DNA from: Pseudomonas sp. B21-048
GTDB taxonomy: Bacteria; Pseudomonadota; Gammaproteobacteria; Pseudomonadales; Pseudomonadaceae
Assembly: GCF_024748615.1 (NCBI RefSeq)
Contig: NZ_CP087168.1
Span: 2,542,001 to 2,606,000 of the forward strand
DNA length: 64,000 nt
Direction: 5' to 3'
The number at the start of each line of letters is the position of its first letter. Within the stretch, counting starts at the first letter, position 1. Below are positions 57,495-64,000 of this stretch, piece after piece. The translations under genes were made by a program, and so were the position numbers. The notes below the pieces were generated by a model that was not told the DNA's origin, did not search any database, and saw nothing but the letters and a program-made list of their open reading frames with translations.

Positions 57495-58370
57495 ATGAAG
57501 TCGCAAACTCGTGGGACGCTCGAAATGATTTCGGCCATGGTGATTTCCGGCACGGTGGGCTGGTTCGTCATCATGTCGGGGCAGAGTCCGGAGGCCGTGG
57601 TGTTCTGGCGTTGCTTGTTCGGCGCCATGGCGATGTTGGTCGCGTGCCTGGTGCTCGGGGGGCTGCGCCGCTCCCGGATCAACGCCCGGCAGTTCATTCT
57701 GGTATGCCTGGGTGGGGTGGCGCTGATACTTAACTGGCTGCTGCTGTTCAGTGCCTACAAACATTCCTCTATCGCCATTGCGACGGTGGTCTACCACGTT
57801 CAGCCATTCATGCTGGTCGGTCTGGGTGTGCTGTTCTTCGCCGAGCGCCTCAGCGCCGCCAAGGTCGGCTGGCTGCTGTTGGCCTTCTCCGGTCTGATGT
57901 TGATCGTGTCCGCCAAAGGCAGTGGGCAGGCCACCGGCGCCGACTACCTGCTGGGCATCTGCCTGGCCCTGGCTTCAGCCTTCTTCTACGCTGTGGCGGC
58001 GGCGATCACCAAGCGCCTCAAAAACTTACCCGCGCACCTGATCGTGCTGATCCAGATGGTGGTAGGCGTGCTGGTCCTGGCACCGTTCGTGGACTTCACC
58101 AGGGTTGATACGGTCGAAGGTGCCTGGACTTACCTGATCATTATCGGCGTGGCCCATACCGGGCTCATGTCGACCCTGCTGTACAGCGCCATCCAGAAAA
58201 TCCCCACGGCGCTGGTCGGGGCGCTGTCGTTCATCTATCCGATCGTCGCCATCCTGGTCGACTGGGTTGCCTTCGCCCACCCGCTCGGCGTCCTGCAAAT
58301 GATTGGTGCGAGCGCCATCCTGCTGGCGGCTGCGGGCATGAACTTCGGTTGGTCGCTGGGCCGTGCCTGA
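57495..58370 (+). CDS. DMT superfamily transporter (EamA domain)
   Basis: The 291-residue protein has 10 hydrophobic segments and two EamA repeats, the first with VFWRCLFGAMAMLVACLV, then ASAFFYAVAAAITKRLKN at the start of the second. Such proteins export amino acids or metabolites. The start is the ATG at 57495 (a GTG lies 3 bases earlier) with AAGGAAG upstream. It is divergent from the XRE-cupin gene. Its stop coincides with the end of the degraded gene on the other strand. Confidence 0.9.
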   Translation: MKSQTRGTLEMISAMVISGTVGWFVIMSGQSPEAVVFWRCLFGAMAMLVACLVLGGLRRSRINARQFILVCLGGVALILNWLLLFSAYKHSSIAIATVVYHVQPFMLVGLGVLFFAERLSAAKVGWLLLAFSGLMLIVSAKGSGQATGADYLLGICLALASAFFYAVAAAITKRLKNLPAHLIVLIQMVVGVLVLAPFVDFTRVDTVEGAWTYLIIIGVAHTGLMSTLLYSAIQKIPTALVGALSFIYPIVAILVDWVAFAHPLGVLQMIGASAILLAAAGMNFGWSLGRA

Positions 58371-58673
58371 CGGCCAATACCTGCAGTACCACTACGATCA
58401 CGTGCAGCAAGGCACTGAGACGGGCGTGTTCGCGCGTGGGGGCTCGCCAACGCACAAAGCCCCACACAAGGTATGCCCAGGCGCCGATGTTGAGCAGGAA
58501 CATGGCCGTGGGGTCGAGCGTCGAAAAGCGGCTGTCGAAGCCCAGTTGATGATCGAGCCATTGGATCAGTGAATAGCCCAGACGGACACCATCGGCAAGG
58601 CGAATGGGGCCATTGCAAGAATGTCGTATACAGCGCCAACGCGTACGATTTTCTCATGTGTGGATTGGGTCAT
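58371..58673 (-). pseudogene. Frameshifted membrane-protein gene at the 3' end of the AfsA operon
   Basis: From the ATG at 58671-58673, with GGAGGAG about 8 bases before it, the frame encodes MTQSTHEKIVRVGAVYDILA, then MAPFALPMVSVWAIH and a TGA at 58566-58568. The adjacent frame continues LIQWLDHQLGFDSRFSTLDP, then MFLLNIGAWAYLVWGFVRW and VIVVVLQVLAVRHG, a four-helix-type membrane protein. One base change near 58570 would restore it. The 3' end runs into the DMT gene on the other strand. It is the last gene of the operon and no longer intact. Confidence 0.75.
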
Positions 58674-59421
58674 TGCGAGTCTCCTCCTGGAGTGGCCGGT
58701 TCAACACGTCGCGAATTTCCTGGAACTCCCCCGATTTCAGTCCATTACGATGGCGCTCGGCCAAGACTTGGATGATATGCCCAGCGCGGGACTCGGCGTC
58801 GACGATGTAGCCGGGAACTGCCGCTCGTTGCCGCAGCGCGACAAGATCGCTGAAACGTTCATCCGCCGCCATGATGGTCCGCGCCACAGTTGTCTGGACG
58901 TTACAGAGCCCCAGAACTGCAAAGAATGTGTGTGGGTTTTCCAATTGATAGATTTTTGCCAGAGCGTTCAACGCCGCCTTGGATACCGAATATGAGAGCA
59001 TCCCGGCACGTTGGCGCAGTGCTGAAATCGATGATGAGAAGACCACGGTACTGGGGGGCTGCGTCGCACTCAGCACAATGTCCAGGACCATTTTCACGGC
59101 GCCCAGATTGAGCGCCAGGACGCTATTGAACTCCTGCATCGAGGTCTGCGTGGCCAGTTGGGGCGGGCTGCCGAACCTTCCCGCATTCAGGTAGACGGTC
59201 TCTACCGGGTTAGGGGTGCGCGACAGCAACGCCTGCAAGATTGCCGGCGCGCGCTCGATATCGGTTAAGTCGCACCGCAGGAAGTGGAAGTGCTCCTGTG
59301 GCGGGATATTGGCCGCAGGATTTCGTGACACAGCGAACACCTCGTCGCCCCTGGCCAGGTGATTGCGTGCCAGAGCGTTGCCGATACCGGTGCTTACACC
59401 GGTGATCAATATGCTAGCCAT
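58654..59421 (-). CDS. SDR-family oxidoreductase (operon gene 6)
   Basis: The 255-residue classical-size SDR has cofactor motif GVSTGIGNAL (about 8-17), YLNAGRFG in place of NNAG, and the catalytic Tyr-Lys in SYSVSKAALNAL (Y/K with Ser in STVVFSSSIS). It would reduce or oxidise a carbonyl/hydroxyl with NAD(P)H. Its end overlaps the start of the next, broken gene by 20 bp and the gene begins 8 bp after SDR1, so it belongs to the AfsA operon. Confidence 0.9.
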   Translation of the reverse strand: MASILITGVSTGIGNALARNHLARGDEVFAVSRNPAANIPPQEHFHFLRCDLTDIERAPAILQALLSRTPNPVETVYLNAGRFGSPPQLATQTSMQEFNSVLALNLGAVKMVLDIVLSATQPPSTVVFSSSISALRQRAGMLSYSVSKAALNALAKIYQLENPHTFFAVLGLCNVQTTVARTIMAADERFSDLVALRQRAAVPGYIVDAESRAGHIIQVLAERHRNGLKSGEFQEIRDVLNRPLQEETRNDPIHT

Positions 59422-59429
59422 GATTGCCC

Positions 59430-60200
59430 CTAGAATTTTCCGATGTGATAGCCGCCATCGGCGCTGAGCACCGTGCCGGTGATGTAGCTGGATCTCTTGC
59501 TCAGCAAAAACACGATCGCGTCGGCGATTTCCTCTGGCTGGGCAAAGCGCTTCATGGCCGTCACGTCGCGCTTGCGCTGGGTGTTTTCCGGATGGGCAGC
59601 CAGCCGTTCCGGAGAGTTCATGCCTCCCAGTGTCGGCCCGGGCGCTACGGCGTTGACGCGCACGGCAAAGCGGGATTCGCTGTCGCAGGCATTCTCCATG
59701 GCGGCGACTTGCGTCAAGGCATTGAGCGCTGCCTTGCTGGCGACGTAGGCCGCCTGATTGGCCATAGGCATCACGCCAGCGCACGAGGACACATTGACGA
59801 TCGCTCCATCGGGGTACTGGCTGATCAATGCCAGTTCTTTTTGCAGGCAATACAGGGGGCCGTTCAGGTTGGTGTGGATGACCCTGTTCCAGTCCTGCGG
59901 TTGGACTGTCGCGATCGGCGCATAGGGGGCGGTAATGCCTGCGTTGTTGATTGCGTAGTGCAAGCGATCAACCTCGCCAGCCACCTTCGCGAATGCTTCG
60001 GCTACTGAAGTTTCCGACGCTACATCGCAAAAAATGAACTGTGCCGAAGTACCCAGTATCTCCAGAGCGGCGGCGGCCTTTTGCTGGTTCCTGCTCATCA
60101 GGAACAGCCGCGCGCCCGCTCCGGCCAATTGCTTTGCCACCGCCAGGCCGATGCCGCTTGCACCGCCGGTGATGACGATGTTCTTGTCTTGAAATTCCAT
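59430..60200 (-). CDS. SDR-family oxidoreductase (operon gene 5)
   Basis: The 256-residue SDR has GGASGIGLAVAKQL (about 12-25), INNAGITAPYAP, Ser in VNVSSCAG, and the catalytic YVASK in AAYVASKAALNAL; the C-terminus GTVLSADGGYHIGKF is the common FabG-like ending. It would use NAD(P)H to reduce a ketone. In A-factor-type pathways a reductase of this kind reduces the butenolide or the side-chain ketone; here that is inferred from its position. The gene starts 1 bp after the OYE gene stop. Confidence 0.92.
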   Translation of the reverse strand: MEFQDKNIVITGGASGIGLAVAKQLAGAGARLFLMSRNQQKAAAALEILGTSAQFIFCDVASETSVAEAFAKVAGEVDRLHYAINNAGITAPYAPIATVQPQDWNRVIHTNLNGPLYCLQKELALISQYPDGAIVNVSSCAGVMPMANQAAYVASKAALNALTQVAAMENACDSESRFAVRVNAVAPGPTLGGMNSPERLAAHPENTQRKRDVTAMKRFAQPEEIADAIVFLLSKRSSYITGTVLSADGGYHIGKF

Positions 60201-60201
60201 G

Positions 60202-61350
60202 TTATTGATTCCCGTAATGGATGTGAGCGGGACGCTTGTAGTGCTCATTCACACAGCAATACACCCGATCGAGTTGCGGATTGCTCTTGTCCCGAAAGCA
60301 GTTACCGTCAAACCGGCATTGCTGGACCTGATCTTCATGACCGGCGAGTGACTTGCTGATCAGGTCGTTATCGGCAAAAAGGGCTCGGCTCATGCCGATC
60401 AGATCGCAGTGACCAAGCCGCAGTTGATCTTCTGCCTCCTGCAGGGAGCCAATGAAACCGGCATAGCCGACCGGGAGAGAGGTGAACGACTTGATCAGGC
60501 GTACCCCTTCGACGAACTGTCGCTGAATCGTCGGATGGGCAGAAAGCATGTAGCGGAAGGTTTCCTTGATGGTGATCGAGCACATGATTGCCGACGTCCC
60601 GGCGTCCGCCAGGGCAGCCACGACGTCCTCGAGCAGTTCCGGTTGCTGCCCGTTGGCGCCCAAACAATCATCGATGCCCAAGCGCACGGAAACCTCCAGG
60701 TCTCCAGCGGTAACCCTGTGAATGCGGTCGATGACTTCCAACAGGAACCGCGCTCGCTTGAGTGGGCTGGCGCCATAGGCGTCACGGCGATGGTTGGTCC
60801 AGGGCGACAGAAAACTGCTCAGCAGATAGCCGTTGGATGCCTGAAGCTGGACCATCCTGGCGCCGGCCTGTCTGGCACGCAGAGCCGCTTGGGCAAACTG
60901 ATCGCAGACAGCGTCGATGTCCTCGACACTCATCTCTACCAAGAGATCGGCGCCGCTGCTGCCGGATAACGCACTGCGGCTCGGGCAAAGCAACGGCTGG
61001 CCGCTGATCTGCGTGCCGCCTTGGGCTCCGTAATGCTGAAGTTGCACCACCACCGGACAGTCCCGCTGGTGGCCGTACTCCACCAGCGGCGCGAGCTTTT
61101 CCATGTTGGCATCGCTGTGCAGGCACAGGCCGCGCGCATGCAGGCGCGTGGAGGGCGCTATGGAGGAGTTGCCCAGCACCACCATGGCGCAGCCACCATC
61201 GATCACATGTTGATAGAAAGTGAGCATTTCTTCGGACAGCGAACCGTCCGAGGTGGCCAGGTCGATGCCCATCGGGGCGAAATACAATCGGTTTTTCAGC
61301 GAAACGCTCTGACCGATCACCAGTGGGCTTTGTGACATCTCATAGCTCAT
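60202..61350 (-). CDS. Old-yellow-enzyme-type NADH:flavin oxidoreductase
   Basis: The 382-residue protein has the OYE TIM barrel: LKNRLYFAPMG at the start, VVQLQHYGAQGG, a substrate loop, SVRLGIDD and FMN phosphate segment GHCDLIGMSRALFADNDLI. The C-terminus is Cys-rich (CRFDGNCF and YCCVN), recalling the 4Fe-4S site of dienoyl-CoA reductases but missing at least one of its cysteines. OYE enzymes reduce C=C bonds next to carbonyls, so a butenolide or enone intermediate is a plausible substrate. Start MSYEMS has GAGGATCG just before. Confidence 0.9.
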   Translation of the reverse strand: MSYEMSQSPLVIGQSVSLKNRLYFAPMGIDLATSDGSLSEEMLTFYQHVIDGGCAMVVLGNSSIAPSTRLHARGLCLHSDANMEKLAPLVEYGHQRDCPVVVQLQHYGAQGGTQISGQPLLCPSRSALSGSSGADLLVEMSVEDIDAVCDQFAQAALRARQAGARMVQLQASNGYLLSSFLSPWTNHRRDAYGASPLKRARFLLEVIDRIHRVTAGDLEVSVRLGIDDCLGANGQQPELLEDVVAALADAGTSAIMCSITIKETFRYMLSAHPTIQRQFVEGVRLIKSFTSLPVGYAGFIGSLQEAEDQLRLGHCDLIGMSRALFADNDLISKSLAGHEDQVQQCRFDGNCFRDKSNPQLDRVYCCVNEHYKRPAHIHYGNQ

Positions 61351-61363
61351 GGGCGCACGATCC

Positions 61364-62563
61364 TCATGCCACGGTTTGCTCGTGGGCGAGTGGGGCAGGC
61401 GAAGAGGCAGCGGCCGATTGCATCTGTCCGGCAAAGAAGCAGTGGCACTTGATCGTTTCACGGAGCTCGCTGGCCTGGTCCTTGGACAGCTTGCCGAACA
61501 CCAGCACCCGCTGATCGGGTTCGCTGGTGGAGCAGGTCGAAGCAACTGGCAGGCTGAGGAAACCACCCCCTTCGATGTAGAGCGATACGGTACTGACCGT
61601 GCTCCAATCGATGGCCCCGGCTTGATGAGTCACCAGCACTCCCAGTACCGAGAGCAGGCTCAGCCTGGCTTGCAACACGCTATCGGCGTAATGCACGAGA
61701 ATGTTCTTGGGCAAGCGATCGGAGGGGGCAAACCAGTGATCCTGAGGGTAGTTCAACGAGCGCATGCGTTTGAACAGCGGTAACTTGATCACTGCGCCTT
61801 GCAGCCAAAGACGCGACACCAGCCGACCGTTCTGATAGAAGTGCGCGCACTTGTCGATGGTCTTGGGCTGTGATCGTTTGAGGCCCTTGGCCTGCTGCAC
61901 CATGATTTCGACTTCATAGGCCGATTCGATGTAGGCACTGAAGGAAATGCGCAAGTCTTCGATGGAAATGGAAACTGCGCCGCGCTGGTGTCCCAAGTGG
62001 TTGTAGACATAGTGGTACATGGCTTGCCTGGCCACTTCGATCAGCATCAGGCCAGGCACATGTTCGTGCTGCTTGTTGTAGAAGTAGTAATTTTTGGTGT
62101 CGTTGATCAACAGATAAGACCCCCGCCTGGCCTTGTCCCACTGCGCGAGCGCTTCAAGGCATTCGATCATGCGTAATACTTGGTCGGGCGGTATCTCGGC
62201 ATCAACGCCCTGAAAATGCTGGGCAAGGTAGCGTTGGGTCTGCTGAGGGATGAATTCAGCCGTGAGGACGAAGTGGTCGCCGCACTCGGTATAGAAATCG
62301 TTCAGGCGGATCTCGAAGGTGGAGAGTGTGGTCGCCTGTTCCGCGCTGATGGTCAAGGGCAGATAGTGCAGCACATACTGGCCATCTTGTGCACGGTACA
62401 GTTTCTTGAACAGGGCCTGATCCTCCGCGTTGCCAGCCAGTATTTCGGCGCCGATCGGAGCACTGAGAAAGCTGGGCAGAATCAGCCTTGGTCGAGCGAC
62501 CAGGACATCCTTGGGTGTGTCTTTGTGCAACAGGTGAGGGTCAATCGAGTATGCGCTGTTCAT
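61364..62563 (-). CDS. AfsA-type hotdog protein (A-factor/gamma-butyrolactone synthase family)
   Basis: The 399-residue protein carries the AfsA active-site segment HEHVPGLMLIEVARQAMYH (about 166-184), closely matching the family pattern DHVPGMLLLEAARQAA. It also has DPHLLHKDTPKDVLVA near the N-terminus, the usual start of AfsA repeats. A second hotdog-like half follows (about 215-385, SISIEDLRISFSAYIES) without a clear second HVPG motif. AfsA condenses a beta-ketoacyl group with dihydroxyacetone phosphate to start gamma-butyrolactone signals in Streptomyces. It lies in a six-gene operon of reductases. Confidence 0.82.
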   Translation of the reverse strand: MNSAYSIDPHLLHKDTPKDVLVARPRLILPSFLSAPIGAEILAGNAEDQALFKKLYRAQDGQYVLHYLPLTISAEQATTLSTFEIRLNDFYTECGDHFVLTAEFIPQQTQRYLAQHFQGVDAEIPPDQVLRMIECLEALAQWDKARRGSYLLINDTKNYYFYNKQHEHVPGLMLIEVARQAMYHYVYNHLGHQRGAVSISIEDLRISFSAYIESAYEVEIMVQQAKGLKRSQPKTIDKCAHFYQNGRLVSRLWLQGAVIKLPLFKRMRSLNYPQDHWFAPSDRLPKNILVHYADSVLQARLSLLSVLGVLVTHQAGAIDWSTVSTVSLYIEGGGFLSLPVASTCSTSEPDQRVLVFGKLSKDQASELRETIKCHCFFAGQMQSAAASSPAPLAHEQTVA

Positions 62564-63089
62564 GAGTTGCGATCTCCAGTGAGCGAGTTGGGGAATGTAG
62601 GGGGAGATGGGACAGCAAAAGATTGATGATGACCCCATGTACCGGCGCCACCGGCAGCATGTACAGGCGGCCGAAAGTATTGAAGGTCTTGACGGAGGTG
62701 GTGATATGCAGGCAACGCCGTTGCGTGAGTGTTGCATCGATCGAGACCATGACCGCCAGATGGGTATCGCGTGAGGTCAGTACCAGCTTCTGTGCGCTGA
62801 TGACCTCGACGGTGAAGAAATCGAGCTTTTCGCCGACCGCCGGGACGCACTGTGGTGTAACGCCCGAGAACCCGCCGATCCTCTCGACGTGAAAGTGCTG
62901 CGAGATACTGTCGCGCAGCCTGAACGCGCCTTTGAGCCAAGCGGGCGTGGCGGCCGTCATCAGGCAGTACAGTTCGAATACCGTGGCTTCGGTGTCGATG
63001 ATCGCGCTGGCCGAATGCAGAAAACCCAGTTCATGGTGCGCGGCCACCAGGCTGGCGCACGGTGGGATCTGGTCGTTCGGCGTCTTCAT
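62541..63089 (-). CDS. DUF2867 family protein (operon gene 2)
   Basis: The 182-residue protein has the DUF2867 look: an N-terminal helix region with LMTAATPAWLKGAFRLRDSI, a beta barrel with VGEKLDFFTVEVISAQKLV, LTSRDTHLAVMVSIDATL and TSVKTFNTFGRLYMLPVAP, and a hydrophobic C-terminal helix. DUF2867 proteins share a lipocalin/START-like fold and are usually next to NAD(P)-dependent redox enzymes. It overlaps the AfsA gene start by 23 bp, so the two are translated together. A role in binding the hydrophobic product is a guess. Confidence 0.82.
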   Translation of the reverse strand: MKTPNDQIPPCASLVAAHHELGFLHSASAIIDTEATVFELYCLMTAATPAWLKGAFRLRDSISQHFHVERIGGFSGVTPQCVPAVGEKLDFFTVEVISAQKLVLTSRDTHLAVMVSIDATLTQRRCLHITTSVKTFNTFGRLYMLPVAPVHGVIINLLLSHLPLHSPTRSLEIATHEQRILD

Positions 63090-63102
63090 GATCGATGACA
63101 CC

Positions 63103-63696
63103 TTATTGCAACAGGGCGACTTGCGCCTGCTCGGCTTGCAACAGCATGTTTTCGTAGAGCCGGTCGGCGGATGCCTGGTCCTCGACAACCTGTTCGGCGA
63201 CGTTCTGAGCGGTGACGTCGATTGACTCGTCATCGATGAATACCGATTCGTAAACCCCGACGACAGGCAGGTAGATACCTTTGACGTACGCCACCGTCTG
63301 CTGCAAAGGCCTGAGCAATTCATCCAGTGTGTAACGGTTGAACCCGCCAGCGCGGTAGCCTATGGATGGCACACCCACTGTGGCGATGATCAAGAATTCC
63401 TTGTTCTTGAGCTTGTCGCCGCCGCGTGCGTAGGCATAGCCGGGGGTGAACACTTCGTCGATCCACTGCTTCATGATTGCCGGGCAGGAATACCAATACA
63501 GCGGAAACAGCAACACGATGCGGTCATGGGCATCGAGCAACGCCTGCTCTGCACGAATATCGAACCCGGTGGGCGTTACCGCGCAGGCCAGGCTATGGAC
63601 CTTGACGCCACGATGGCTGATCTTGCTCATGATCGCGATATTGACGCGGGAAACCGAGAGATCAGGATGGCCAGAAATGACAATGACTTTTTTCAT
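63103..63696 (-). CDS. Flavodoxin-fold NAD(P)H-dependent oxidoreductase (MdaB/NQO-like)
   Basis: The 197-residue protein starts MKKVIVISGHPDLSVSRVN and has FPLYWYSCPAIMKQWIDEVF (FMN site) and VGVPSIGYRAGGFNRY, matching NQO1/MdaB quinone reductases. It is the first gene fully visible in the operon, 13 bp before the DUF2867 gene. An upstream GTG (63705) is an alternative start; AAAGGA lies before both. It would reduce a quinone or enone with NAD(P)H. Confidence 0.9.
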   Translation of the reverse strand: MKKVIVISGHPDLSVSRVNIAIMSKISHRGVKVHSLACAVTPTGFDIRAEQALLDAHDRIVLLFPLYWYSCPAIMKQWIDEVFTPGYAYARGGDKLKNKEFLIIATVGVPSIGYRAGGFNRYTLDELLRPLQQTVAYVKGIYLPVVGVYESVFIDDESIDVTAQNVAEQVVEDQASADRLYENMLLQAEQAQVALLQ

Positions 63697-63840
63697 GTAG
63701 GGCACGTGTCCTTTATATAAATAAGTCGATTGAAATTCCGATGCAGCACTATTTAAGAGCAGGTGCCTGAAGTTGTAACCTAACCTTTTGGGGAGGCGGC
63801 TTGGCCAATTTGCCGGCAGCGGCAGGCCATTCGTAGTGCT

Positions 63841-64000
63841 TCAGGCCACTTCTCGATCAACAAGGCTGGGCGGTACCCTGATCCAGTTGACCATGATCTT
63901 GTGCCCGTCGATTACGGTCAGCTTGTCCTCGCAATGAGCATCGAAGCCCGCTTTGCGCAACAATCGGGTAATCCCCGGCGGAGATACCGTGATCAATTGG
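63841..64000 (-). CDS. C-terminal part of a gene cut by the window edge; possible LuxI-type synthase
   Basis: The minus-strand frame ends at the stop complement 63841-63843 and encodes about 52 residues: ITVSPPGITRLLRKAGFDAH, then CEDKLTVIDGHKIMVNWIRV, then PPSLVDREVA. The stretch with RLLRKAGF after a TVSPPGI strand resembles the C-terminal region of LuxI-type autoinducer synthases (for example ERMLRRSGW in RhlI), but too little is visible to claim this. It is on the same strand as the AfsA operon, about 140 bp upstream of its first gene. Confidence 0.35.
   Translation of the reverse strand, partial: QLITVSPPGITRLLRKAGFDAHCEDKLTVIDGHKIMVNWIRVPPSLVDREVA

Follow-up and report, generated by a model that had tools for sequence, protein, structure and literature searches.

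A luxI/luxR-linked AfsA-type operon of Pseudomonas as a probable butenolide or butyrolactone biosynthesis cassette

The window analyzed here, a stretch of 64,000 bases from Pseudomonas sp. B21-048 (base 2542001-2606000 of a 5.71-Mb single-contig genome), ends in an operon built around an AfsA-type synthase gene. This operon is probably a horizontally exchanged gene set, linked to quorum sensing by N-acyl-homoserine lactone (AHL), for the production of a small fatty-acyl butenolide or butyrolactone. Support for this reading comes from the genes present, their recurrence as a set, the domain families and the predicted fold; the product might serve as an antibiotic instead of a signal. Six closely spaced minus-strand genes, whose starts were picked from the sequence, encode in order a Flavodoxin_2 (KefF/NQO-like) oxidoreductase, hereafter NQO (63103..63696; PF02525, 1.1e-37), a DUF2867 protein (62541..63089; PF11066, 1.2e-25), the AfsA-type synthase of 399 amino acids (aa) (61364..62563; PF03756, 2.7e-7), a YqjM-type ene-reductase of the Old Yellow Enzyme (OYE) family (60202..61350; Oxidored_FMN PF00724, 4.1e-52) and two short-chain dehydrogenases/reductases, SDR1 (59430..60200; adh_short_C2 PF13561, 1e-54) and SDR2 (58654..59421; adh_short PF00106, 2.6e-21). 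The intergenic gaps are 13, -23 (an overlap), 13, 1 and 8 bp. The original prediction had described six tightly packed genes with these spacings and families, and both stand: all six proteins score above their Pfam family cut-off, including the PF03756 match that it had made its test (31.1 bits versus a cut-off of 24). Three further genes were absent from it. Upstream, the operon extends past the window end with luxI and then luxR, which are located in L004, a stretch of the same genome that reaches beyond the window. Only the last 160 bases of the AHL synthase gene luxI fall inside the window (63841..64000, minus strand; full gene L004:9842-10504; PF00765, 3.5e-21) and luxR lies wholly outside it (L004:10577-11293; PF03472, 1.4e-33; PF00196, 1.3e-16). 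Downstream, overlapping the end of SDR2, lies a damaged gene (58360..58673, minus strand) whose intact form encodes a small hydrophobic protein of 145 aa; here its frame is interrupted and its 3' part gone.

The gene set sought in other Pseudomonas genomes was found. An AfsA homologue (E <= 1e-5) is present in 10 of 398 sampled genomes of the genus, the window's own included, and the surroundings were viewed for nine of these (G285, a weak match in a 1093-aa frame, was left out). With P. fluorescens EK007-RG4 added, the comparison covers 11 loci in 10 genomes; G346 contributes two loci, and L007 and G237 are the same assembly. The trio AfsA-OYE-SDR1 is common to all 11 loci, and luxI/luxR are adjacent in nine of them, corresponding to luxI-linked clusters in 8 of the 398 sampled genomes. 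Six loci are of the full type (the window's own, L006, L007, L019, L020 and L021). Since L019, L020 and L021 retain the same gene order at 43-64% protein identity, the gene set is more than a chance association. Three reduced loci (L022, L023 and L024) consist of divergent luxR and luxI followed by AfsA-OYE-SDR1. Outside the genus sample, the AfsA family profile, with at most four candidates scored per genome in the matches listed, matched one of 398 genomes of a phylum sample and one of 390 of an order sample, in both cases the window's own, and a plain AfsA protein search among 57 relatives returned the window's genome alone. Homologues listed in protein searches come from Methylosinus, Burkholderia, Paraburkholderia, Paracoccus, Xenorhabdus, Vibrio, Azotobacter and others, so the low counts of the profile runs do not establish that the gene is rare outside Pseudomonas.

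The closest copies were revealed by a scan of named genomes: in P. fluorescens EK007-RG4 and P. paralactis DSM 29164 (L006 and L007) the AfsA protein is 86-87% identical and the gene order is luxR-luxI-NQO-DUF2867-AfsA-OYE-SDR1-SDR2-small protein, the last gene being intact (145 aa). Their DNA is 90% identical to the window's genome over 6970 and 6989 bases. In the 10.5 kb compared this identity breaks off sharply at both ends, at one of them about where the small-protein gene of the window is interrupted and cut short, and the open reading frame (ORF) lists differ between the window's genome and the two relatives in the genes flanking the shared part. Judged by these alignments, the nine genes are a discrete cassette of about 7 kb, which appears to have spread by horizontal movement. 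An empty site of the cassette could not be made out: 8 of the 10 genomes searched match the window's flank, but at 64-69% apart from one match of 29 bases, and in the window's genome no more than short matches to the L007 flank were found. The G+C content of the cluster (57.6%) is like that of the window (58.0%), so composition gives no mark of foreign origin. No tRNA that could serve as integration site was found in L004. The sole Rfam match in 12 kb around the cluster is the end of a group II intron (L004:13519-13594), about 2.2 kb past luxR; the ORF beside it (L004:13029-13514) has by eye the look of a maturase fragment and is a possible trace of past rearrangement. A plasmid or phage origin of the AfsA gene was discarded, with no tblastn match and no relative in viral contigs, as was a role in anti-phage defence, for which DUF2867, AfsA and the small hydrophobic protein gave no PADLOC match.

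The adjacent luxI and luxR suggest that the operon is under AHL control. LuxI carries an Autoind_synth domain and LuxR the Autoind_bind and GerE domains (Pfam), and both appear complete in alignments when judged by the residues with established roles in these families. Between luxI and the NQO gene lies AGGTTACAA (63773..63781, minus strand), a possible regulatory site seen by eye that recurs upstream of the NQO gene in all six full-type loci, a count likewise made by eye and without a chance test. In the reduced loci the divergent luxR and luxI are separated by CTGTCAAGGGTGACAG, an exact match to the lux-box consensus CTGNCAN4TGNCAG (L022:8299-8314; L023:8784-8799; L024:11810-11825). These are the only exact matches among 40 loci (six entries, as three places appear twice). 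The best match inside the window's own cluster has two mismatches and lies within the luxR gene. A second gene of the LuxI family, with its own LuxR-type neighbour, is found at 3.52 Mb of the genome (3519915-3520415). Five more Autoind_bind proteins are encoded in the genome, one of them beside this second luxI, and cross-talk is therefore possible.

The AfsA protein could be modelled with a mean predicted local distance difference test (pLDDT) of 88.6. Its hotdog domain (residues 146-252; 61808..62128, minus strand) is the single Pfam PF03756 match in the protein and carries the invariant motif HEH.PG.M.IE..RQ. The ExxR motif of the AfsA hotdog helix has a catalytic role, and its residues E176 and R179 are invariant in 57 aligned sequences. 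A confidently modelled alpha/beta region (about residues 20-145; 62129-62506) stands ahead of the hotdog. The C-terminal part (residues 274-377; 61433..61744, minus strand) is PilZ-like by fold. AfsA/ScbA butyrolactone synthases have two tandem AfsA hotdog domains; according to the single Pfam match and the fold comparison of residues 274-377, the Pseudomonas protein has one hotdog followed by a PilZ-like domain and does not appear to be of the Streptomyces double-hotdog type. By sequence the resemblance to PilZ is weak. In a profile comparison the C-terminal part reaches 70.6% and the whole protein 34.4%, while the remaining two parts give 0.1 and 0.4%; a second set gives 25%. Pfam finds PilZ in only 4 of the 57 sequences, with a best value of 0.006, and in none of the other set of 52. 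A phmmer search of the C-terminal part against solved structures produced 20 weak matches (E values up to 5), the best being a light-harvesting protein (0.0082) and none named PilZ, and is therefore of no help to the PilZ assignment; the AfsA family profile gave one chance match (0.21) to solved structures. PilZ domains bind cyclic di-GMP (c-di-GMP) through the motifs RxxxR and (D/N)xSxxG. In the 57 sequences both arginines occur in one, a single one in 49 and none in 7, and the second motif has D/N at position 303 in none, S305 in 53 and G308 in 35. A role as c-di-GMP receptor was rejected, the full motif being present in 0 of 57 sequences, and the domain is probably a structural or a docking/allosteric part. 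By this comparison, many AfsA-like proteins of Proteobacteria seem to differ in domain layout from the Streptomyces enzymes.

A pathway can be proposed from the known chemistry of the AfsA family, namely the AfsA-like domain of gladiostatin biosynthesis, which uses a 3-ketothioester and dihydroxyacetone phosphate (DHAP) as substrates (PMC7756379). LuxI would make an AHL, and AHL-bound LuxR would activate the operon. The AfsA hotdog would condense a beta-ketoacyl thioester with a C3 unit such as DHAP to a 2-acyl-butenolide, whose activated C=C could be reduced by the OYE and whose side-chain ketone could be reduced by SDR1; later or accessory steps might fall to SDR2, NQO, DUF2867 and the small protein, which has no Pfam match above cut-off and, judging by its hydrophobic sequence, probably sits in the membrane. 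The beta-ketoacyl thioester would come from fatty acid synthesis here and from a dedicated ligase, carrier and beta-ketoacyl-acyl carrier protein synthase III (KAS III) set in the sister clusters L025 and L026. There the genes AfsA-OYE-SDR1-SDR2 are continued by a 103-104-aa protein, an AMP-ligase, an 80-aa protein and a KAS III. The 80-aa proteins score 19.1-19.5 bits for PP-binding, just under the cut-off of 20.8; the 103-104-aa proteins have no Pfam match, and one of them has only a weak AcpM match in NCBIfam (16.5 versus 146 bits). We infer from these profiles that both are acyl carriers, and the combination of KAS III, AMP-ligase and a carrier-like protein points to a beta-ketoacyl substrate.

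Several observations weigh against the proposed lactone operon under AHL control. The ScbA/BarX equivalog model (NF041195) gives the AfsA protein 36.3 bits, far from its cut-off of 200. The cluster genes that were scanned include no phosphatase, though the DHAP route yields a phosphate. L025 and L026 have no luxI/luxR beside AfsA, and lux-box-like sites with up to three mismatches are not in excess in L004 (105 versus 94.6 expected, with 35 of 200 shuffles reaching 105). The OYE is well supported as a family member (PF00724, 178 bits versus a cut-off of 27) and its closest solved structure is YqjM. OYE enzymes hold the substrate carbonyl with a His/His or His/Asn pair. All 11 loci have QASNGYL at the place of YqjM's HAAHGYL, with Gln/Asn for the His/His pair, and the window's enzyme has a glycine in place of the cysteine in YqjM's PMCMY. 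Because the usual carbonyl-holding His residues are missing, its reaction may differ from the usual one. The OYE of all 11 loci also carries a C-terminal four-cysteine motif, C-x5-C-x13-C-C, which we take to resemble a degenerate version of the iron-sulphur loop found in dienoyl-CoA reductases. Finally, the window's copy may not yield the final product, because its last gene is broken.

The alternatives concern mainly the nature of the product. A special case of the lactone operon would be a 4-methyl-2-alkyl(1-hydroxyalkyl or alkenyl)-butenolide of the type of acaterin or the P. aureofaciens 63-28 compound, an antibiotic and not a signal; as a specific structure this is possible but rather doubtful. 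The C3 phosphate would be lost by elimination, giving an exocyclic methylene that is reduced by the OYE, and by our own reasoning the absence of a phosphatase would be explained, because phosphate would leave in this step. The structure of acaterin, a 'dehydroacaterin reductase' and the logic of elimination and reduction underlie this proposal, and no literature match was found for them. To our knowledge no gene cluster has been assigned to either butenolide. In favour of the proposal, OYE and SDR1 are the two genes that accompany AfsA in every locus compared, and butenolide makers are known in Pseudomonas: acaterin is from Pseudomonas sp. A92 (PMC2633664) and 4-hydroxy-4-methyl-2-(1-hexenyl)-2-butenolide from P. 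aureofaciens 63-28 (PMC10192879). The latter paper describes one Pseudomonas with both a butyrolactone and an hserlactone cluster, and proposes that in its own strain the butenolide comes from an unknown butyrolactone cluster. However, the ring connectivity would demand a geometry of the C3 acceptor other than the known one of AfsA.

A true A-factor-like signal, a butyrolactone sensed by a dedicated receptor or by the adjacent LuxR, is unlikely. AfsA family membership and the adjacency of luxR in 9 of 11 loci speak for it, and in Ruegeria pomeroyi most of the cluster that contains the AfsA gene depends on this gene for its transcription (PMC7426152). However, luxR and luxI are missing beside AfsA in the other two loci, and a complete LuxI is at hand to make the usual ligand of LuxR. 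No TetR/ArpA-type gene scored over the cut-off among 10 proteins scanned (the eight cluster genes and two nearby regulators, one of which has a TetR_N match of 13.4 versus 24 bits). With neither an ArpA-type receptor nor a phosphatase found in the cluster, Streptomyces-like signalling is not supported. Of the original prediction, the butyrolactone- or butenolide-type product thus survives as the best reading, with the AfsA-OYE-SDR1 core in every locus compared, and the Streptomyces-like signal lacks support, given also the single PF03756 match and the score below the ScbA/BarX cut-off. It is improbable that the hotdog protein is a dehydratase or thioesterase in an operon for a non-lactone reduced fatty-acyl product: FabZ dehydratases and hotdog thioesterases are what it matches best in structure, and it lacks AfsA's pair of PF03756 matches and falls under the ScbA/BarX cut-off, but the general hotdog fold is common to all matched folds, so that fold alone does not discriminate, and Pfam finds AfsA in 57/57 and 52/52 members (E <= 1); FabA-like appears once among the 52 (0.05) and is not listed for any of the 57.

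The lactone operon shares with Streptomyces AfsA/ScbA the PF03756 hotdog, the HEH.PG.M.IE..RQ-like motif and linked reductase genes. The Streptomyces system comprises two hotdogs and an ArpA-type receptor; here, in contrast, one PF03756 match, a PilZ-like C-terminus, an OYE partner and a score far under the NCBIfam ScbA/BarX cut-off are found, and LuxI/LuxR stand in place of the receptor. The gladiostatin domain of Burkholderia gladioli, a phosphorylated butenolide synthase, is likewise a Gram-negative PF03756 enzyme acting on beta-keto thioesters, but it terminates a polyketide synthase, whereas the Pseudomonas AfsA is stand-alone in a small operon without one (PMC7756379). The A-factor-like cluster of Pseudomonas Ps664 has an AfsA-like gene whose partners are a hydrolase, a P450 and an MFS transporter, a reductase being absent according to the paper (PMC8719888). 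The putative butyrolactone cluster of Ruegeria pomeroyi DSS-3 is a Gram-negative secondary-metabolite cluster with an AfsA-domain gene, but has another gene set and other regulators and is required for killing competitors (PMC7426152). AfsA-like genes also occur in Chromobacterium subtsugae, in a quorum-sensing study (PMC12114271), and in the mobile element ICEPan of Pantoea ananatis (PMC4458695), with neighbours (HAD hydrolase, DUF2165 and efflux; other cargo genes) unlike OYE and SDRs. The last four of these reports (PMC8719888, PMC7426152, PMC12114271 and PMC4458695) thus already record genes of the AfsA type in Gram-negatives, Pseudomonas among them. Biosynthetic clusters linked to luxR have also been surveyed, LuxI/LuxR beside such a cluster being common in Proteobacteria (PMC5872303); 'AfsA' occurs 0 times in the main text of that survey. 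Among the literature matches listed, no prior description of the luxR-luxI-AfsA-OYE-SDR set and no gene cluster for Pseudomonas butenolides such as acaterin was found.

Two classic lactone systems, LuxI/LuxR and AfsA, are joined here in one small and probably movable unit, and one lactone signal may turn on the making of another lactone. It is conceivable, at somewhat less than an even chance, that the operon is to Gram-negatives what the A-factor system is to Streptomyces: AHL quorum sensing would turn on the synthesis of a second lactone by AfsA enzymes of a distinct proteobacterial class (one hotdog plus a PilZ-like domain), with an OYE of changed active site as partner, all on a 7-kb cassette moved between Pseudomonas genomes. 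The operon permits a direct test of butyrolactone-type compounds as second-tier signals or quorum-controlled antibiotics in Gram-negatives and supplies candidates for the genes behind acaterin and similar Pseudomonas butenolides. A second PF03756 locus of the same genome (L005:4625-8065; genome 3134624-3138064) encodes a protein of 1146 aa in which ketosynthase domains are combined with two hotdog stretches of the AfsA type. Beside it are a protein with two PP-binding stretches and, named from sequence, a probable FAD monooxygenase and a probable ligase; a ketosynthase-AfsA domain protein is mentioned in Pseudomonas Ps664 as well (PMC8719888).

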